A DNA stretch of 64,000 bases from Clostridia bacterium (GTDB lineage: Bacteria; Bacillota; TC1; UBA5767). The stretch spans positions 1,846,001 to 1,910,000 of the forward strand of contig CP069393.1 in NCBI GenBank assembly GCA_016887505.1. The letters run 5' to 3'. How positions within the stretch are numbered: the first letter of the stretch is position 1; every line of letters begins with the position of its first letter. The position numbers and the translations under genes are program-made. Positions 7,943 through 19,229 of this stretch are shown here, one piece after another. The notes beneath the pieces are model-generated. The model saw only the letters and a program-made list of their open reading frames with translations, was not told the DNA's origin and made no database searches.

Positions 7943-9138
7943 TTATTTAAACTCCTGCTAAGATTAAGCTTATTTGTATTTAATAACTCTCCCGTTCGCA
8001 ATAAGCCACCTTTTTCAAGATTGTATGAGAATAAATGATTCATGACATATTCTCCTTTTTCAATGCCAGCCAGTTCTGAAATATTCATCACCCTACGCTT
8101 GCCATCACCCATTCTTGAAAGCTGAACTACAATGTCTATGGCGCTTACTATCTGCTGTTTCGCAGAATCAAGTGGGATTTCCCCAGATTCCACTGCCATG
8201 ACTTCCAAACGTTTCAGTGCATCTCTCGGGTTATTAGCATGACCAGTAGATAAGGATCCATCGTGTCCCGTATTCATCGCTTGTAACATATCTAAAGCCT
8301 CGCGGCCTCGCACCTCACCTACAATAATTCGGTCGGGCCTGAGCCTTAGTGCTGTTTTAATTAAGTCTCGTATCGCTATGGGACAGCCACCGCTCGCATC
8401 GCTTCTCGCTTCTAGGCGAATTATGTTTTCCTTTCCTTTTATCTGTAATTCTGCAGAATCTTCTATCGTTACAATACGCTCTTCGCTGGGGATATAATTC
8501 GAAAGAATATTTAGAAAAGTTGTCTTTCCAGAGCTCGTTCCTCCACTGATAAATATATTGTATTTACTAGTCACAAGCATCTGCATAAAGTCTGCAGCTT
8601 CTTGAGTCATACTTCCACTTCGCAAAAGGTGTTCCATGGTAAGTGGATTTTCTGGAAATTTTCTTATGGTCATAATGGGCCCTTGCAAGGCAACGGGTGG
8701 AAGAACTACCGCGACTCGAGAACCATCTTCCAAACGGGCATCCACAATTGGTGTCGTTTCATTAACTGACCGATTAACCTTGGTAACCACATTCTGAATG
8801 ATATTATGTAAGGTATCGGAAGTTTCGAAGCTTTGATGGATGCGCTCCATCCGACCGCCCTTCTCCACAAATATGCAATCTGGTCCATTAATCATAATCT
8901 CCGAAATGCTGTCATCTTCTAGAAATGGTTGTAGGATATCTAGTTTCCTCATGGAATTATAGATACTGACTATTAATTTTTCTTTTTGGGAAAAACTTAG
9001 AATATCTGCCTGTTCATAAGAGAGCACCTCCTCCGTTATCACGTCCTGCAATTGGTCGTCCTCGATATCAGGATAGTGCGCAATTTTCTCATTCACATTC
9101 TGACGTATCTGGTTTTTTATCAAATACAAATCACTCAT
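7939..9138 (-). CDS. tadA: Tad pilus assembly ATPase TadA/CpaF
   Basis: Secretion ATPase of the VirB11/PilB superfamily that powers pilus assembly at the cytoplasmic membrane. It has 399 residues. The N-terminal domain ends near EIMINGPDCIFVEKGGRMERI, and the catalytic domain has Walker A SGGTSSGKTTF (about residue 200), the Asp box/Walker B region RIVTIEDSAELQI and RPDRIIVGEVRGREALDMLQA, and the His box TGHDGSLSTGHAN. All ATPase motifs look intact. It overlaps its neighbours by four bases on both sides. Not to be confused with the tRNA deaminase gene tadA at 22.7 kb. Confidence 0.93.
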   Translation of the reverse strand: MSDLYLIKNQIRQNVNEKIAHYPDIEDDQLQDVITEEVLSYEQADILSFSQKEKLIVSIYNSMRKLDILQPFLEDDSISEIMINGPDCIFVEKGGRMERIHQSFETSDTLHNIIQNVVTKVNRSVNETTPIVDARLEDGSRVAVVLPPVALQGPIMTIRKFPENPLTMEHLLRSGSMTQEAADFMQMLVTSKYNIFISGGTSSGKTTFLNILSNYIPSEERIVTIEDSAELQIKGKENIIRLEARSDASGGCPIAIRDLIKTALRLRPDRIIVGEVRGREALDMLQAMNTGHDGSLSTGHANNPRDALKRLEVMAVESGEIPLDSAKQQIVSAIDIVVQLSRMGDGKRRVMNISELAGIEKGEYVMNHLFSYNLEKGGLLRTGELLNTNKLNLSRSLNK

Positions 9139-10145
9139 GACATCATCCTTTCTAACATATGCTCTACAAACGACTCCATTTCCCCTACCAATTTCCGACC
9201 GGGATCAAATTCTACACCAAGGCTAGATTCCTGAAAAAAATCAAAAACTTCAGCAACAAGAAAACATTCATCCTCGCTAGGCATTCCAGGAATTGTTGAA
9301 TTAGATACTGTAGTGTCTCCAAAGCGAAGATGCACGCATTTTTCTTCTAGTAAAGGGTATTCCTTGAATAATCTCTTCAAGCTTTCTTCCCACTTTATTC
9401 GCTCATAAAGACTTGCGCACTGCACACTAACTACAGTATCGGCCCGAGTAAGAAGCCACATTTCTAAATCATTTAATTCCTGGCTCAATTCTAGTACCAC
9501 ATAGTCAAAAGCATTTTCATTCCGAAGGCATTGTAAAATCTGTTTAAAGTCTTCTGTTTTGATTGAGCGTTTATCCTTGCGGCTTCTAGATGAGCCTAAA
9601 AAATAAAAATGGTGGGTGTGCTGATACGAAAAATAGGTCATTGCCGCTTGTTTTTTAATATTTAGGAAGAGTTTCGTAAAGCCCTCATCTTGCGGACTAT
9701 CCAATAAGCGGTCATTCACATCGATCCCCTCGGTTGTCAAATAGGCAACATGATCGAATTTTTCTGCAAGACAACTAGAAAGGGCTAGGGAAATTCCCGT
9801 TCTTTTCTCCTCGCATCCTGGACAAAGCACACCAATAATTTTCATATTCTCTTCAAGAACTAATTTCTGTTTTTTAAGAATGTAGTGAATGATATGGGCA
9901 TACACAAAAGAGAATCTTTGAAACTTATACACCTCGAAGTCCTCTTTCGGCTTTTGTCCAACCAAGAAAATTGTATTTACCGGCTGAGTCTTATCATCAG
10001 CTACTTGGTCTGTCACAAAAAACTCGCAAGACGTGTATGCCTCATCTTCTGCCATAATGAAGGTGACCTCTAGACTCGTCCGTGCTAAGAATTCCCGAAT
10101 AAAGCAATCGCAGTAATTTTTTTCCAAGTTCAATCCAATACGCAT
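9135..10145 (-). CDS. CpaE-like degenerate ParA-family protein of the Tad locus
   Basis: Likely pilus-localisation protein related to CpaE/TadZ. It has 336 residues from the ATG at 10145, preceded by AAGGAAGGAA. Residues 1-100 could be a receiver-like domain of low similarity; the second part begins MKIIGVLCPGCEEKRTGISLALS and continues with a ParA-like strand pattern (VAYLTTEG, FDYVVLELSQ, ADTVVSVQ). The P-loop lacks a KGGxGKT lysine, so ATP binding or hydrolysis is doubtful. It is the first gene of the minus-strand Tad operon and overlaps tadA by four bases. Confidence 0.65.
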   Translation of the reverse strand: MRIGLNLEKNYCDCFIREFLARTSLEVTFIMAEDEAYTSCEFFVTDQVADDKTQPVNTIFLVGQKPKEDFEVYKFQRFSFVYAHIIHYILKKQKLVLEENMKIIGVLCPGCEEKRTGISLALSSCLAEKFDHVAYLTTEGIDVNDRLLDSPQDEGFTKLFLNIKKQAAMTYFSYQHTHHFYFLGSSRSRKDKRSIKTEDFKQILQCLRNENAFDYVVLELSQELNDLEMWLLTRADTVVSVQCASLYERIKWEESLKRLFKEYPLLEEKCVHLRFGDTTVSNSTIPGMPSEDECFLVAEVFDFFQESSLGVEFDPGRKLVGEMESFVEHMLERMMS

Positions 10146-10172
10146 CCACAATTCCTTCCTTTTTATGCGCTC

Positions 10173-10178: not shown

Positions 10179-10359
10179 ACTCGCAGAATGTGTAGAATCC
10201 TCCGTATAAGGAACATCAAATTATGATGAATCGCTCTGAGCACGGCTGGCCATAGTCTAATATACATATTGGCGAGTCAAGAAACTGCTAAATTTTTCTT
10301 TCATCTATCCACTCGCTACAACTCCTAGCGCTTAATTTATGTTTTTTTTCGGAGGTCTT

Positions 10360-11385
10360 ATGCCAGCAATTGTAGCAGTACACCCAAAGATTTCTTCCAT
10401 CGTACAAGACTGTTTAGTAAGAACAAACTTCTCACCTGTATCGATACAATCTCATTTATCATCCTCTAGGAATGTAAATGAACTGTTCGCTATTCTCAGG
10501 AAAGTCGACTCTACTTTATTGATATTAGACACTGTTCTGCTACCAAAAGAGCATTGTATCGATACGCTTAGGAGACTGCGGTTGAGTCAGCCTAGCCTCA
10601 GAATCATTCTTTTAAGCCCTCAAATAGTCTTTTTAGAGCAACACCGAAATGAATTTGCAATCCTACAAATTTTCGATACTTTTGCATATAAGGCAAACAC
10701 TAACGGACTTGTTCATTTGCAAGATTCCTTGCCACAAATGATTCTTCATCCTGCAGATGCGATGGACTTTTTACAAAAAAAAATTTTTGAGCCAGATCTA
10801 AAAAATCCAATATCCTTTTCCAAAAGTTTTATCTCTGTTGCTGGTCTTGAAGAAAGAACAGGAACTACTAAGACCGCTCTTCTTTTTTCTTTATTTTTGA
10901 GGGACAAGGTTCTCCTAGTAGAATTGAATGAAAAGCATCCAGTTTTACTTGAATATTTTCTCCTTGAAGAATATTTCGATGCTGCTACCGGATTATACTA
11001 TCTACCCAATTGCCCTAATCTAGCCATTCTTCCCCTGGAGCGGTCGCAAAATTGGACCCAGTATATCGAAAATTTCAAATATGTTGTGCTCGATCTAGGT
11101 GTTTTTTCTCCCCATGTCAGTGATTCCTGCTACCAAGAATTTCAACGTAGCAGCATGCGTATTCTCACCTCATTAGGCAGCCCTTGGAGCATTCAACATC
11201 TTCAAAACCTGAATATTCCACAGGATACCTTTCTATGGTTAAACTTTTGCCCTGAAGAAAGCCTTAAAGCGATACAAAGAAATATAAAAGGTAAATATGG
11301 CACTATTGTCGCTTCTCCTTATCAACCAAATTGGTTGTTTGTGAGTAAAGAGCAAAAAAAAGTATGCCGCCAATTATTCTTCTAA
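10360..11385 (+). CDS. Second CpaE-like protein, divergent from the Tad operon
   Basis: A 341-residue protein with an N-terminal receiver-like region (LLILDTVLLP and RLRLSQPSLRIILLSPQ) and a C-terminal ParA-like region starting FISVAGLEERTGTTKTALLF, followed by DKVLLVELNEKHPVLLEYFL and YVVLDLG. The GTTKTA motif replaces the classical P-loop, as in a degenerate CpaE-like lineage. I take it to act with the Tad machine, perhaps in localisation, because it lies head-to-head with the operon that carries another CpaE-like gene. The start at 10360 follows CGGAGGTCTT; the ATG at 10339 lies upstream of that site. Confidence 0.55.
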   Translation: MPAIVAVHPKISSIVQDCLVRTNFSPVSIQSHLSSSRNVNELFAILRKVDSTLLILDTVLLPKEHCIDTLRRLRLSQPSLRIILLSPQIVFLEQHRNEFAILQIFDTFAYKANTNGLVHLQDSLPQMILHPADAMDFLQKKIFEPDLKNPISFSKSFISVAGLEERTGTTKTALLFSLFLRDKVLLVELNEKHPVLLEYFLLEEYFDAATGLYYLPNCPNLAILPLERSQNWTQYIENFKYVVLDLGVFSPHVSDSCYQEFQRSSMRILTSLGSPWSIQHLQNLNIPQDTFLWLNFCPEESLKAIQRNIKGKYGTIVASPYQPNWLFVSKEQKKVCRQLFF

Positions 11386-13216: not shown

Positions 13217-13738
13217 CTAATCGTTAGATGCAGTGTTGTTTTGGTAACAATAGTACGCTAGCACGGTCTTAACATCAAGTATTTCCCCTTCTTCTATCGC
13301 TAGCTTTAACTCCTCCATCGTCCACCAACGGGTCTTTTCTACATCTACATCATCTACCATCTGTTCTAGCTGTTGTCCGCTTGGTACTTTGGCAGAAAAT
13401 ATTTGCATGGTTGAATAGTTATGACCAATTTGAGGTATGTATGATACCAGTGGTTGTAAATCGCTACTTTGGATGTTGAGTGCACATTCTTCTTCGATTT
13501 CTTCCACCATTACCTCGACTGGAGATAATGCAGGTTTATCCAAGCAACCGGCCGGGATCTCCCAAGTCATTTTTTCCACAGCTGGTCTGTATTGTTTAAC
13601 TAGTAATATTCGGTCCTCTTCATCAAGCAAGACCGCTGCAACAGCACTCGGCGATTCTAGGATCTCATATTTTCGGCCATTTCTCTGTTTGCGAAAAATC
13701 TTCAACCAGCCTTGATAAAGATATTCCTTATTACTCAT
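13217..13738 (-). CDS. Nudix hydrolase, ADP-ribose pyrophosphatase-like, degenerate box
   Basis: Probable nucleoside-diphosphate hydrolase of the ADP-sugar pyrophosphatase type. It has 173 residues. The fold signature is present: LLVKQYRPAVEKMTWEIPAG, then the Nudix helix, then SYIPQIGHNYSTMQIFSAKV. The Nudix box is altered. Where REUxEExGU is expected it has EEIEEECAL, so the Arg is Glu and the Gly is Ala, with about one extra residue between the conserved Gly and the helix. The metal-binding glutamates remain. Last gene of a three-gene operon; it overlaps the mutase-like gene by eight bases. Confidence 0.8.
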   Translation of the reverse strand: MSNKEYLYQGWLKIFRKQRNGRKYEILESPSAVAAVLLDEEDRILLVKQYRPAVEKMTWEIPAGCLDKPALSPVEVMVEEIEEECALNIQSSDLQPLVSYIPQIGHNYSTMQIFSAKVPSGQQLEQMVDDVDVEKTRWWTMEELKLAIEEGEILDVKTVLAYYCYQNNTASND

Positions 13739-14426
13739 CGCGTAACTCCGATTTAGAAATATAATTCAAATCATCGTCTAATGTATAAACCATGGGAATC
13801 CCTCGCATGATAGGACGTTCGATTACTTCCTCTATGGGAGCATCTTCTATCATGGTCATAAGTGCACGAATGCTATTATGGTGTCCTACTACCAAAACTT
13901 TACGGTCGATAGCAATCATGGGCTTAATCTTGTTATCCCAGTGTGGAAATACCCTTGAAAAAGTCTCTACTAAATTTTCTCCTTGTGGAATTTCCTCAGG
14001 GATAAGATCGCCATATCGGGGGTCATTCGATGGATGCCGCAAATCGTCGAGCTCCACCATAGGAACAAACGCTTTATAATCATGCATCCAATGCTTCAGT
14101 TTTTCTTCCCCATATCGCTCAGCAATTTGCTGGTAGTCCATCCCCTCGAGCTGTCCATAGTATCTTCCGTTTAATCGCCAATTCTTATTCGTTTTTACCC
14201 AATGTAAGTCCATCGCATCAAGAATCTGCCATAAAGACTGGACGCCTCGCGTCAACACGGAGGTAAATGCCAGATCAAAAGTATAATTATTCCTTTTAAG
14301 AATTCTGCCAGCATTGTACTCTTCTTCCAAGCCTGCTTTCGAAAGTCTTACATCCTGCCAACCGACTAATTTGTTCTTACTAGATTCTTCTGTTGAGCCG
14401 CTGCAGACGAGCACGATTTCTTTCAT
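13731..14426 (-). CDS. Phosphoglycerate mutase (GpmA)-like protein lacking catalytic residues
   Basis: A 231-residue relative of cofactor-dependent phosphoglycerate mutase, recognisable from GWQDVRLSKAG, FDLAFTSVLTRGVQSLW, NGRYYGQLEGM, DPRYGDL and GHHNSIRALM. The phospho-acceptor motif RHG is CSG here (residues 8-10), so catalytic Arg and His are gone. The acid/base Glu (LNERHYG in E. coli) is Gly, and the two Arg that hold the substrate phosphate (QWRRGF) are replaced (HWMHDY). The second His (GHHNS) and the SVLxR Arg remain. It is unlikely to be a mutase; a binding or regulatory role is possible. The start at 14426 follows GGGAGAG. Middle gene of the HAD-mutase-Nudix operon. Confidence 0.85.
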   Translation of the reverse strand: MKEIVLVCSGSTEESSKNKLVGWQDVRLSKAGLEEEYNAGRILKRNNYTFDLAFTSVLTRGVQSLWQILDAMDLHWVKTNKNWRLNGRYYGQLEGMDYQQIAERYGEEKLKHWMHDYKAFVPMVELDDLRHPSNDPRYGDLIPEEIPQGENLVETFSRVFPHWDNKIKPMIAIDRKVLVVGHHNSIRALMTMIEDAPIEEVIERPIMRGIPMVYTLDDDLNYISKSELRDE

Positions 14427-14428
14427 TA

Positions 14429-15151
14429 TTATCTCTCCCAAATCAGTTTTTCTTCTTTATCTATCAACTCAGCGACAGACGAAATCACAAAATCTGCAGT
14501 TTCGCCCACATCACTCGATTCCTTTTCAATCCCTATCAAAGCCCCAACCTTTGTGTTGCGTCCAAACTCCATGTCCGTCATGGTGTCTCCTACCATAGCT
14601 ACTTCAGAAGGTTTTATTCCATATTGCTGACAAAACATCTCCATTATCTCGGGATTTGGCTTTGGCTTTATTATACCATCATCTGCTCCTATATAATCAA
14701 AGAGCTCCATTACGTTCAATTTTTGTAAACAATTTCTAGCAGACAACATCGTGTCTGCTGTCGCTAGCCCGACAAATAAACCTCTTTGTTTTAATTTCTG
14801 AATCAATTTTGGTAAATCTTCTACTGTGGGGATTATCTGTACATCCATGGAAAAAGTATTAAAATATTGCTCAGATTTGGCAAAAAATGAATTTTGATCA
14901 ATCTTTACACCATGGTTGTGCATTACGCGAATCAAATCACCTGCAATATCTGCGTTCGTGCCCATTGCCATCGAGCCTGCTGGATTCACAATCTCACCTT
15001 CAATACCAATTGCTAGAAGTAGTTCCTCTTGATTTATATCTGGAGCATAATCTTTTGCTAAAGCCAGGCAAACTTTACGAGCTACTGGTATCCATGTCTT
15101 CTCTATGTCTAAAATAGTTCCATCTTTGTCTAACATTATCCCTTTTATCAT
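14429..15151 (-). CDS. HAD-superfamily hydrolase, phosphoglycolate phosphatase-like
   Basis: Predicted small-molecule phosphatase with 240 residues. Motif I is LDKDGTILD near the N-terminus, motif II is LATAD, motif III includes KPKPNPEIMEMF and motif IV is AMVGDTMTDMEFG, so the active site looks complete. The helical cap lies between residues about 20 and 95. First gene of the operon; its stop is two bases before the ATG of the mutase-like gene. Substrate unknown: phosphoglycolate is only the nearest family name. Confidence 0.85.
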   Translation of the reverse strand: MIKGIMLDKDGTILDIEKTWIPVARKVCLALAKDYAPDINQEELLLAIGIEGEIVNPAGSMAMGTNADIAGDLIRVMHNHGVKIDQNSFFAKSEQYFNTFSMDVQIIPTVEDLPKLIQKLKQRGLFVGLATADTMLSARNCLQKLNVMELFDYIGADDGIIKPKPNPEIMEMFCQQYGIKPSEVAMVGDTMTDMEFGRNTKVGALIGIEKESSDVGETADFVISSVAELIDKEEKLIWER

Positions 15152-15226
15152 AATCTTCTCCTGTCTGTATACGATAACATTCGACTAATAAAAATGAAAG
15201 TATTGACTTTTTGAAAAACTAGGCAC

Positions 15227-15256
15227 AAAAAGAGCACGGTTACCCGTGCTCTTTTT
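15227..15256 (-). terminator. Intrinsic terminator after the aldolase gene
   Basis: The minus strand reads a 13-base stem (AAAAAGAGCACGG with its complement) around a four-base loop, ending in a T run, directly after the aldolase stop codon. Confidence 0.88.
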
Positions 15257-15258
15257 GA

Positions 15259-16194
15259 CTATATTTTATTGTTGCATCCCAATACGTTTACAATTTTATG
15301 TCTTACCATCGCTTTAATGGCTTCCCTTGATGGTCCTAAATACTTTCTAGGATCAAAGACTTCTGGGTGCTCAGCCATTTCCTTGCGAATGGTTCCTGTC
15401 ATTGCTAATCTTAAGTCTGAGTCGATATTAATCTTGCAAACGGCCATGCTGGCTGCTTTGCGCAGCATATCTTCAGGCACACCCTTGGCACCAGACATGT
15501 CCCCTCCATAAGCATTAATCATTTCTACGTATTCTGGAATAACCGAAGATGCTCCATGTAAAACGATGGGGAAGTTTGGCAATCTTCTGCTTACTTCCTC
15601 TAGAATATCGTATCGTAACTTGGGCTCACCTTTAAACTTAAAGGCACCATGGCTCGTACCAATTGCAATTGCCAAAGAATCAACCCCTGTGCTAGAAACA
15701 AATTCTTCAACTTCTTCTGGTCTTGTATAACTAGCATCTTCTGCAGATACATTTACATCATCTTCTATACCAGATAACTGTCCGAGTTCACCTTCAACCG
15801 TTACACCCTTGTCGTGTGCATACTCGACAACTTTCTTCGTTAGTGCAATATTCTCCTTGAAGGACAAGTGGGATCCATCAATCATAACTGAACTAAAACC
15901 ACCATCAATACAAGATTTGCATAGTTCAAAAGAATCCCCATGGTCTAGGTGCAATGCAATAGGCAAATCAGTTTCAATCAAAGCTGCTTCAACCAACTTT
16001 GTAAGATAAGTGTGATTCGCGTATTTTCTTGCTCCTGCGGAAACCTGAAGAATTAAGGGTGCCTTTTCTTCATAAGCTGCTTCTGTAATTCCTTGGATAA
16101 TCTCCATGTTGTTGACATTGAAAGCCCCGATAGCATAACCGCCCTCATAGGCTTTCTTAAACATTTCAGTCGTGGTAACTAGTGGCATTTGCAT
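15259..16194 (-). CDS. fba: Class II fructose-bisphosphate aldolase
   Basis: Zinc-dependent aldolase that splits or forms fructose-1,6-bisphosphate. It has 311 residues. Zn and substrate motifs are visible: ALHLDHGDSFELCKSCIDGGF, MIDGSHLSFKENI, VEGELGQLSG, IGTSHGAFKF and VLHGASSVIPE, close to the family's usual spacing. Two ATG codons, 16194 and 16188, follow AAAGGAGGAG; either is possible. It overlaps the end of the MFS gene by 29 bases. The related enzyme tagatose-bisphosphate aldolase cannot be excluded, but the length and motifs fit Fba. Confidence 0.93.
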   Translation of the reverse strand: MQMPLVTTTEMFKKAYEGGYAIGAFNVNNMEIIQGITEAAYEEKAPLILQVSAGARKYANHTYLTKLVEAALIETDLPIALHLDHGDSFELCKSCIDGGFSSVMIDGSHLSFKENIALTKKVVEYAHDKGVTVEGELGQLSGIEDDVNVSAEDASYTRPEEVEEFVSSTGVDSLAIAIGTSHGAFKFKGEPKLRYDILEEVSRRLPNFPIVLHGASSVIPEYVEMINAYGGDMSGAKGVPEDMLRKAASMAVCKINIDSDLRLAMTGTIRKEMAEHPEVFDPRKYLGPSREAIKAMVRHKIVNVLGCNNKI

Positions 16195-17404
16195 TCTCCT
16201 CCTTTTTACTGGAAGACGGCCTAAGACCGCTCCTGTTCATCAAAACGGGTAATATGATTCCCGAAATCCCCAGAATTAGAAATATGACCTGGTGTGTGGC
16301 AAATAAAGTCAACAGGCCAAAGACAAAACTGCCGATGGCAAAACCACCATCCATAGCGTTTTCTTGCACGCCCAAAGCTGTTCCTCTAGTCTTCTCGGGC
16401 ACTGACGCAATAAGCCAGTTGATACTGATTGTTGTAGTCGCTGAAAATCCAAATCCGCCCAGCAAGGAGCATAGCACTAGCATCAGCATTGGATGGTGCG
16501 GTATCAAATATAAAAGTGCTGTGGCCAATGCCAACAATCCTGCACAGACTGTGGCAGCTCTAGCAGGCGCAAATCGGTTCGCACTAAAACCCCCTACAAC
16601 ATTACCCATTAAACCACCAGTTGAGAAGAAAGTAAAGAACAAGCCCACATTTGATATTGCCGGAAACCCAGACAAGTAGATAGCTACAAACGACAGGATT
16701 GCACCATATATAATACAAACCATCAGTATAAGGCCAAAGATCCGGGCTAAATTACGATTCTCCAGTAATTCCTGGTATTCATAAATAATTTTTTTCAATT
16801 TAACTTTAGTTTCTGATGGTTTATAGGTATCTCTAAGCAGTAGAATCAAAAAGCTCATGCAAATCGATACACCAATCAAGGCTAAAAACATCCCCTTATA
16901 ACCATATTGGCTCTTCACAATGGCTAGGGCTCCAACTGGTCCTAGCATTAGGCCCAGTGAATACAATGCACGCTGTATTCCGATTGCCATACCTCGGCTC
17001 TCGCTAGGAACTAGCTCAGAAATATAACAACTCATGGCTGACAGGAAAGAAGCCATCCCCACACCCATGGAAAGTCTTGCCAAAATTATGAGAAGAAGCG
17101 AGCCCATAGAAAGATAGAAGAAGGTTGTTCCTAAGACAAAGCTAAGTGTCCCTAATAGCATCATCGCTTTGCGGCCCTTGATATCAGCAAGAGGCGCAAA
17201 ATAAAAGCGAAAAACTACACAAAATAAGGCATATAGTGTATTTTGCAATCCGGCTGCAAATTCAGAGTACCCCACATGCAACATGTATAGTGGGCTAAGC
17301 GTAAACAGGGCAAAATTAATCGTTATAAATAAACCGCCAGACAAAACAGCAAGAATATAGTCCTTCTGAAGTAGCGGGTGTTTTTTTTTATTGCTATTAC
17401 CCAT
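16166..17404 (-). CDS. Major facilitator superfamily transporter
   Basis: Predicted 12-segment membrane transporter with 412 residues. The loop between segments 2 and 3 is RFYFAPLADIKGRKAMMLLG, the MFS motif A. Segment 5 has GIQRALYSLGLMLGPVGALAI, resembling the drug-efflux type. A cytoplasmic loop (RDTYKPSETKVKLKKIIYEYQELL) separates the halves. Substrate unknown. The ATG at 17404 follows AAGGAGGTACTA, so the upstream ATG at 17437 is rejected. It is co-transcribed with fba. Confidence 0.85.
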   Translation of the reverse strand: MGNSNKKKHPLLQKDYILAVLSGGLFITINFALFTLSPLYMLHVGYSEFAAGLQNTLYALFCVVFRFYFAPLADIKGRKAMMLLGTLSFVLGTTFFYLSMGSLLLIILARLSMGVGMASFLSAMSCYISELVPSESRGMAIGIQRALYSLGLMLGPVGALAIVKSQYGYKGMFLALIGVSICMSFLILLLRDTYKPSETKVKLKKIIYEYQELLENRNLARIFGLILMVCIIYGAILSFVAIYLSGFPAISNVGLFFTFFSTGGLMGNVVGGFSANRFAPARAATVCAGLLALATALLYLIPHHPMLMLVLCSLLGGFGFSATTTISINWLIASVPEKTRGTALGVQENAMDGGFAIGSFVFGLLTLFATHQVIFLILGISGIILPVLMNRSGLRPSSSKKEENANATSYHD

Positions 17405-17480
17405 TAGTACCTCCTTGTTTGCTTCTGATATAATCATAATATATAATCCAAAAATAGGAATACCAAATTGAGGAGGAAAT

Positions 17481-19229
17481 ATGCTTAATATTTATGATGC
17501 GGAATCACTTGAAAAATATTCTTCCGCTGTGACACTATCCGATATGGAAATCTTTATTTTTCCAGAGCTAATGTTCTCATTGGTTCTTGCCAATATCATG
17601 AGCCCAACCATCTGGAAATGGAAACAAGCAGATTGGTTTTCAAAAATGGATAGTTTGAATGATTATCGAAAAGTCTTACGCGTAAAGCAATATATTATGG
17701 ATAATTATGACTTTAATCTAGACTTAGATACATGGGGACTTACCAAAAAAGATATCGAGAAAGAACGCTTCAAACAGTTTGTGGACGATGACACTCTCTC
17801 CAAAAGCAATGCTCTGTTTGGCTATGAAGGAGACAAGTACTATTTTGATATGGATATCCGCAAACATTTTGGTTTAGAAAAATATGATTCGGATACCATA
17901 CCCTATTGGAAAACTGAAACACCCGAGGCCATGGAGAATTTCTACCGCCGTCCTGGATACAAGAAAGGCGCAGGAGAATGTGTCTCCTTTTCCACCTTGT
18001 ATTATGCAGCATTATTTATCATGGCCGGTGTACCTACTGAGAAAATGTATATGATTGCTACCCCACTGCATTCTCAAAATTTTGTGGAAATTAAAGGTGG
18101 TCTACTTACGAATAACCGTAGACTAGTAACTAAGAATATGTGGTTCAATGGAACCGTTCTTTCACATAAAGCAAAGCGTGCCTTGGTTAATGAACATATC
18201 ACGTTTATTGCAAACTCAAATGGTTATATTCACCGTGTTTATGATCAAGCTACTCTACCCCAAGAAGATTTTGAAAACTTTCAAAATGAATTGAAAGATT
18301 TCTTGGTTACAGATGTAAGCTACGAAATCATTGCGAACTTTTTGCGAGAATTCAATAATCGACAGTGCTGTTTCCAATTTGAAACGGAGCGTTTTGGAAA
18401 AACACTCTATATACCTGCGGAGGATGTTTATCGTTATGAACACAGAAGTCCTTATCAAGTGGGTACGAATACCCAAAGTAAATTACTAGATTCTATTGAA
18501 GAAGATGATTTCTATAGCAACCCACTAGAAGGTAGGGTCAGCCTGAAAACCATTGAATTATTCTTCAAAGACAACCAAATCCATATCAAGGAATTGGAAA
18601 AGAATCCAAGCATAATCACAGATCAGTTGTCTCAAATCTGTAAAAAAGCGCATGAGATTGTACCTGACCTTCTTGATTTTTGTAAAACGGAGCCCATGCT
18701 TCCTTCTTATGAAGGAAAAACCTTTAAAGCGCAAAAAGAGGATCTCACTTTACGCAACCTCACTTCAAGAGAAGAAATCATCAGCTACCTAAGAAGCTTA
18801 AAAGACACCTCGGAAATTGCCGGACTAGCCTTTATGGCATATAGAGAAGTAACGGGAGATTACTGGTACCCATTCCTTAAGGCGGCATTGGAGCGTAATC
18901 CAGTAAGCATAGAGATGTTCTCTGAGCAGTCCATCGATGAAGCCTATCAAATTCTACTAGAGTTTGGTGAGGACTCCATTTATAGTGAAAATAGATTGGC
19001 TCAGCCAGATGAAGTAGCTAATTTCCGGACCGGAGATGGCATAGAAAAAGCAATTCTTTTATGGAATCTGGCAAAAAGAAAACACCCTGATGCAGTAATC
19101 GAACTGACTCTCAATAATGCTACGGCTGTCATTACCGGACTTGAAAAGAACTATGAATTTGCCACAAACAAAAATGTTGCTTTACCAGAAAAGATGAGTG
19201 AAATGTTAAAAGAACTAGGCATAGCCTAG
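17481..19229 (+). CDS. Large transglutaminase-like protein of unknown function
   Basis: A 582-residue protein I cannot assign to a named family. No signal peptide or clear membrane helix is visible, although residues 28-40 are hydrophobic. Residues about 160-225 resemble a transglutaminase/protease-like core: GAGECVSFSTLYYAALFIMA puts Cys167 at the start of a helix, TPLHSQNFVEI gives His197, and KNMWFNG may supply the third residue. The C-terminal 230 residues are helical and acidic. The start follows TTGAGGAGGAAAT. It is divergent from the MFS gene and monocistronic, and its last codons lie inside its own terminator. Enzymatic role is inference. Confidence 0.6.
   Translation: MLNIYDAESLEKYSSAVTLSDMEIFIFPELMFSLVLANIMSPTIWKWKQADWFSKMDSLNDYRKVLRVKQYIMDNYDFNLDLDTWGLTKKDIEKERFKQFVDDDTLSKSNALFGYEGDKYYFDMDIRKHFGLEKYDSDTIPYWKTETPEAMENFYRRPGYKKGAGECVSFSTLYYAALFIMAGVPTEKMYMIATPLHSQNFVEIKGGLLTNNRRLVTKNMWFNGTVLSHKAKRALVNEHITFIANSNGYIHRVYDQATLPQEDFENFQNELKDFLVTDVSYEIIANFLREFNNRQCCFQFETERFGKTLYIPAEDVYRYEHRSPYQVGTNTQSKLLDSIEEDDFYSNPLEGRVSLKTIELFFKDNQIHIKELEKNPSIITDQLSQICKKAHEIVPDLLDFCKTEPMLPSYEGKTFKAQKEDLTLRNLTSREEIISYLRSLKDTSEIAGLAFMAYREVTGDYWYPFLKAALERNPVSIEMFSEQSIDEAYQILLEFGEDSIYSENRLAQPDEVANFRTGDGIEKAILLWNLAKRKHPDAVIELTLNNATAVITGLEKNYEFATNKNVALPEKMSEMLKELGIA

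Follow-up and report, generated by a model that had tools for sequence, protein, structure and literature searches.

What has become of a glycolytic enzyme whose catalytic centre is largely missing? The question is raised by a gene located in the window analysed in this work (64,000 nucleotides of contig CP069393.1, from a Clostridia bacterium), which encodes a relative of the 2,3-BPG-dependent phosphoglycerate mutases (dPGMs). The protein could be a working mutase, a decaying one, or a protein retained for another role.

A full-length homologue of dPGM

The gene (13731..14426, minus strand) started with an ATG at 14426, preceded by a GGGAGAG-type ribosome-binding site, and its stop codon ended at 13731. 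It encoded 231 amino acids with no internal stops, and the coordinates, frame and intact full length given in a preliminary description of the locus were borne out. The product, a pseudo-dPGM (hereafter pPGM), passed TIGR01258 with 224 bits (cut-off 81.7; residues 3-230), a score below every equivalog cut-off, and PF00300, the histidine phosphatase superfamily, with 66 bits (gathering cut-off 21.7). Using phmmer, it was aligned end to end with the E. coli dPGM 1e58 (E = 1.2e-57), and also with 5um0 from N. gonorrhoeae. Homology with GpmA (TIGR01258; E. coli 1e58) extended over the full length, with 34-45% identity and the same predicted fold. The AlphaFold model of pPGM, obtained from a 7-row alignment, had a mean pLDDT of 68 and was usable for the fold only: its best PDB matches were all dPGMs (TM-score ~0.8), and the pocket and active-site loops were too uncertain (pLDDT below 50 in residues 77-97 and 114-126). 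The GpmA-type relationship proposed previously was therefore confirmed by the TIGR01258 score, the phmmer alignment and the tree with canonical dPGMs described below. Since TIGR01258 is passed, pipelines for automatic annotation will probably label pPGM as a working 2,3-BPG-dependent phosphoglycerate mutase.

Replacement of the catalytic residues

In dPGMs, the His of the RHG motif is the phospho-acceptor and the Glu of LNERHYG the general acid/base. In pPGM, the RHG Arg was replaced by Cys (C8) and the phospho-acceptor His by Ser (S9), the resulting C8-S9-G10 being present in 4/4 genomes of the family; the catalytic Glu, found in 21/21 canonical dPGMs, was replaced by G87, also in 4/4. The substrate Arg pair and the Lys were gone (MMML at position 114, HNNT at 115 and YYEF at 98 in the four family members; M114-H115 in the window), and position 15 read SSTA. 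The paired motifs in the phmmer alignment were VCSG/VRHG, LNGRYYG/LNERHYG and HWMHDY/QWRRGF (pPGM/canonical), exactly the changes (CSG, LNGRYYG, HWMHDY) that had been noticed before. Additions to that earlier description are the core residues which survive (with Tyr90 and Asn184), the losses of Asn15, Lys98 and Gly183, and the presence of the change throughout the family. Of the four core residues of the superfamily, two survived in 4/4 genomes, namely the second core Arg (R60, in LTRG) and the second catalytic His (H182, in GHHNS), and the nucleophile half was gone. Overall, the pPGM clade had lost R8 (to C), H9 (to S), S12 (to T), N15, T21 (to V or I), E87 (to G), H89 (to Y, 3/4), K98, R114, R115 and G183, and had kept G10, G22, R60, R88, Y90, H182 and N184. 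pPGM thus shared R60, Y90, H182 and N184 with GpmA, but lacked its RHG Arg and His, catalytic Glu, Lys and RR substrate residues.

The canonical reference set consisted of 21 dPGMs (19 from the phylum and two planctomycete), with 82 columns conserved at 90% or more. The columns R8, H9, E87, K98, R114 and R115 were conserved in 21/21 of these proteins, and the substitutions in pPGM are therefore far from chance. The lost columns were enriched at active-site/substrate positions (11/18 vs 19/64 for the other conserved columns; Fisher p = 0.016), defined by what we take to be the standard GpmA list of UniProt/HAMAP. The earlier statement that the catalytic centre had been removed was correct for the nucleophile, the Glu and the substrate Arg, but slightly too strong, as Arg60 and His182 persist. 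That the protein cannot be a normal mutase was well supported by the replacement of the His, the Arg, the Glu and both substrate Arg, and these losses suggest that pPGM has no mutase activity.

The genome also encoded an intact GpmI (MGNSEVGH) within a gap-pgk-tpi-gpmI-eno cluster, so that glycolysis is predicted to be covered by GpmI with no need for pPGM. This is a further difference from GpmA: the pPGM gene lies in an operon of a genome which has GpmI for glycolysis. The genome's remaining three histidine phosphatases (a GpmB/CobC-like protein, one encoded beside cobalamin-type genes, and a SixA-like protein) kept RHG. In metabolic reconstructions of the family bearing it, pPGM should not be counted as a mutase.

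Distribution and phylogeny

Orthologues with C-S-G and Gly87 were found in 4/4 available genomes of the window's family, belonging to two genera: the three relatives (Clostridia bacterium CSMAG_109, Peptococcaceae bacterium UBA5767 and Bacillota bacterium CSSed162cmA_249) had pPGMs with 84% and 70% identity to that of the window within the same genus (g1), and 57% in the second genus. In the phylogenetic tree these proteins formed a monophyletic clade (support 100/100) that a long branch separated from the canonical dPGMs. The 20 other dPGMs detected in 398 genomes of the phylum all had RHG. No match to the pPGM clade profile was obtained in six genomes of the sister family. When 84,980 species genomes were scanned with a sensitivity limited to close relatives, no further CSG member was found and only three planctomycete enzymes, all with RHG, were recovered. 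Viral contigs contained no pPGM relatives; plasmids gave 241 records with matches, all below 60% identity and hence no close relative, and the annotated ones among the five matches listed were gpmA.

Conservation of CSG across genomes in the same operon, proposed earlier as a check, was thus observed in 4/4; RHG homologues or frameshifts would have pointed to decay, and every homologue in the family had CSG and none a stop. A private mutation or a sequencing error in pPGM was rejected, given that the same substitutions were present in independent genomes. Judging from this distribution, the catalytic residues of pPGM appear to have been replaced before its bacterial family diversified.

Selective constraint

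Fourfold-degenerate sites of the window matched those of the relatives at only 29-36%, indicating saturated synonymous change, and fourfold-site identity was consequently used for pPGM in place of dN/dS. With protein identities to the window of 84/70/57% in the three relatives, pPGM had diverged less than its HAD (72/55/42%), NUDIX (69/50/45%) and MFS (73/52/39%) neighbours and more than the aldolase (92/88/85%). C8, S9 and G87 were invariant among the four family members. Conservation of the protein and of the replacement residues despite saturated synonymous sites all but rules out decay, and strong purifying selection and selective retention of pPGM are well supported by these comparisons. 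The usual features of a pseudoenzyme, loss of key catalytic residues in all orthologues together with purifying selection, were both found, and the proposal that the gene had been kept intact for another role gained support from the family-wide CSG and the absence of stops.

That pPGM is the remnant of a dPGM left to decay once GpmI had made it redundant is, against this background, very hard to sustain. The presence of GpmI would make the mutase function dispensable, and the absence of a dPGM match in the sister family would fit such a loss; however, pPGM was intact in 4/4 genomes, carried identical replacement residues across two genera and diverged more slowly than its functional neighbours despite the saturation of synonymous sites.

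Among 55 columns variable in canonical dPGMs, 19 were invariant in the pPGM clade and clustered at 131-173 (permutation p = 0.014). The helix-and-loop region 131-192 may consequently be newly constrained and form a possible new interface, a signal which is weak because only four sequences define the clade.

Gene neighbourhood and transcription

pPGM was encoded between two putative hydrolases on the minus strand. The stop codon of a HAD-superfamily phosphatase gene (14429..15151; phosphoglycolate-phosphatase-like, with DKDGT and GDTMTD intact) was located 2 nt before the pPGM ATG, and the gene for a NUDIX hydrolase (13217..13738; 173 aa, ADP-ribose-pyrophosphatase-like) overlapped the pPGM stop by 8 nt. 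The cluster also comprised, further upstream, the genes for a class II fructose-bisphosphate aldolase (fba, 15259..16194, minus strand) and, overlapping fba, an MFS transporter (16166..17437, minus strand) present in 4/4 family members. All four family genomes had the gene order MFS-fba-HAD-pPGM-NUDIX, and in each the cluster converged on a gene for a Na/Pi cotransporter; the pPGM/NUDIX overlap was 8, 8, 4 and 4 nt, and at the HAD/pPGM junction the two genes either overlapped slightly or were separated by up to 3 nt. Sister-family genomes had an fba-HAD-NUDIX operon lacking pPGM, in which HAD abutted or overlapped NUDIX. Either one family gained the pPGM gene at the HAD/NUDIX junction, or the sister family lost it.

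A 14-bp hairpin with a T-rich arm (15226..15257, minus strand) directly followed fba and separated it from HAD-pPGM-NUDIX; hairpins were present at the equivalent site in the three relatives, being clearest in the window and in relative G002 and weakest in G001. Upstream of HAD, a conserved non-coding block (15166..15210, minus strand), AAAGTCAATNCTTT-N-N-TTTTT followed by TATCGTATACA, is a candidate promoter/operator. In genus g1 it comprised AAAGTCAATNCTTT and, downstream, TTTTT and TATC-TATACA, and AAAGTCAATNCTTT occurred in exactly one copy per genome in the three g1 genomes, always before HAD-pPGM-NUDIX. Because of the terminator-like hairpin after fba and the unique upstream block in g1, the three genes probably form their own transcription unit, with a putative promoter/operator of their own. 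The block was partly an inverted repeat (GAAAAG-N6-CTTTTC in G002).

This arrangement bears on the reading of pPGM as a non-catalytic partner of Fba or GpmI, and not of HAD or NUDIX. The position of fba upstream in 4/4 genomes and the glycolytic nature of the dPGM fold are in its favour, but fba is divided from the three genes by the hairpin and the separate promoter-like block, and the overlapping translation is with NUDIX; we regard it as improbable.

In the NUDIX box of the window (13217-13738, minus strand) the first Glu was absent and the metal-binding Glu residues were present; the box Arg was missing in 9/10 genomes of the class (VE/IE for RE). Co-degeneration of this atypical box with pPGM was considered and rejected, as the sister family without pPGM has the same atypical box. 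In one sister-family genome (G005, L079, 4726-5966) the reading frame of the operon's HAD gene was disturbed and contained stops, and the NUDIX match continued past one stop, reflecting decay or an assembly error.

Putative role of pPGM

Rather than a glycolytic enzyme, whether functional or defective, pPGM is probably a helper or sensor without enzymatic activity. The reading we favour, with a probability of about one half, is that of a lineage-specific pseudoenzyme which, itself non-catalytic, serves the co-translated hydrolases as a partner or regulator. Three lines of evidence point to this role: the coupling of pPGM to NUDIX and HAD in every genome having it, the clustering of clade-specific invariant columns at 131-173, and the precedent of mycobacterial MutT1 discussed below. 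Since the sister family retains HAD and NUDIX but has no pPGM, any dependence on it would be specific to the pPGM-bearing family. Operon neighbours need not interact physically.

According to this proposal, in a family ancestor which relied on GpmI for the glycolytic step, a dPGM gene would have been placed between the HAD-phosphatase and NUDIX genes; the ancestral dPGM would then have lost its phospho-acceptor His, RHG Arg, catalytic Glu and substrate Arg/Lys set, and the altered protein would afterwards have been fixed as the non-catalytic pPGM. It would most likely bind the co-translated NUDIX and/or HAD hydrolase, stabilising or regulating it, perhaps through the helix-and-loop region 131-192, and the remodelled pocket (R60, H182, N184 and Y90, together with C8, S9 and G87) may still bind an anionic ligand serving as a regulatory signal. 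The kept R60, H182, N184 and Y90 hint at a pocket function and speak against a pure scaffold.

The same residues are compatible with a ligand sensor or binding protein whose altered pocket reports a phosphometabolite or another anion without a dedicated partner in the operon. Besides the four kept residues and the fixation of C8, S9 and G87 in 4/4 genomes, such a route was taken by the pseudo-acid-phosphatases of fleas (PMC10728186). Nevertheless, most phosphate ligands (Lys98, both Arg of the RR pair, Asn15 and the RHG Arg) are lost, and sites 15, 98 and 115 drift, which would be unexpected for a conserved phosphoglycerate site, and this alternative can be held only tentatively. Of the roles suggested earlier, metabolite sensing is unlikely for 3PG or 2,3-BPG bound in the canonical way, because most phosphoglycerate ligands are gone; partner regulation would fit the gene arrangement.

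A new function in the old pocket, with C8/S9 and R60/H182 forming either a new catalytic site or a metabolite sensor allosterically controlling NUDIX and HAD, seems doubtful. Changed catalysis in the narrower sense, in which C8 or S9 would build a new active site with H182 and R60 (e.g. a Cys- or Ser-based hydrolase), is more doubtful still: the site of the former nucleophile is occupied by an invariant C8-S9-G10, and H182 and R60 are kept, but the general-acid/base Glu is replaced by Gly, and we know of no family using residues of the C8/S9 type catalytically in this fold. The AlphaFold pocket was too unreliable for the geometry of the dyad. New catalysis by pPGM is less likely than a ligand in the remodelled pocket.

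Comparison with known systems

Pseudoenzymes and histidine-phosphatase members lacking the His are already known kinds of protein. Catalytic-site variants, by title phosphoprotein phosphatase homologues, were reportedly described among dPGM homologues by Rigden in 2003 (cited in PMC2964296), a precedent for catalytic-site variation in this group. No report of such a loss in a bacterial dPGM proper was found in the literature searched, which included few subscription journals.

The non-catalytic partner role resembles the case of mycobacterial MutT1, in which a histidine-phosphatase domain is fused to a NUDIX domain, the tested activity belongs to the latter, an RHG to RAG change did not abolish phosphatase activity, and an accessory role was suggested for the histidine-phosphatase domain (PMC11784022). 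A NUDIX protein is likewise paired with a histidine-phosphatase fold in the case of pPGM; however, the MutT1 domain is fused, has an intact RHG and is not of the dPGM type, whereas pPGM is encoded by a separate, overlapping gene and has lost RHG. The flea salivary acid-phosphatase-like proteins XcAP-1, XcAP-2 and XcAP-3 lost the catalytic His, have no phosphatase activity and are binding proteins (PMC10728186). They share with pPGM the superfamily and the absence of the catalytic His, but are secreted eukaryotic proteins of the acid phosphatase branch and have lost both His, the second of which is kept in pPGM.

In pPGM, nature provides a clear-cut example of a glycolytic enzyme converted to a conserved protein that is probably no longer an enzyme, and the sister-family operon without it allows the behaviour of HAD and NUDIX to be compared with and without pPGM.

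Other open reading frames in the window

Divergent from the MFS gene, a 582-aa ORF (17481-19229, plus strand) had no Pfam or NCBIfam match; ORFs sharing its N-terminus, ESLEKYSSAVSLSDMEIFIFPELMFSLVLANIMSP, adjoined fba in 6/6 sister-family genomes, and its predicted product is a conserved protein outside the Pfam and NCBIfam families. Two divergent ORFs (9135-10151, minus strand, and 10339-11385, plus strand) adjoining a gene for a CpaF-like ATPase had no Pfam match; the product of the second resembled a diverged ParA/CpaE ATPase (GTTKT, LLVELN).
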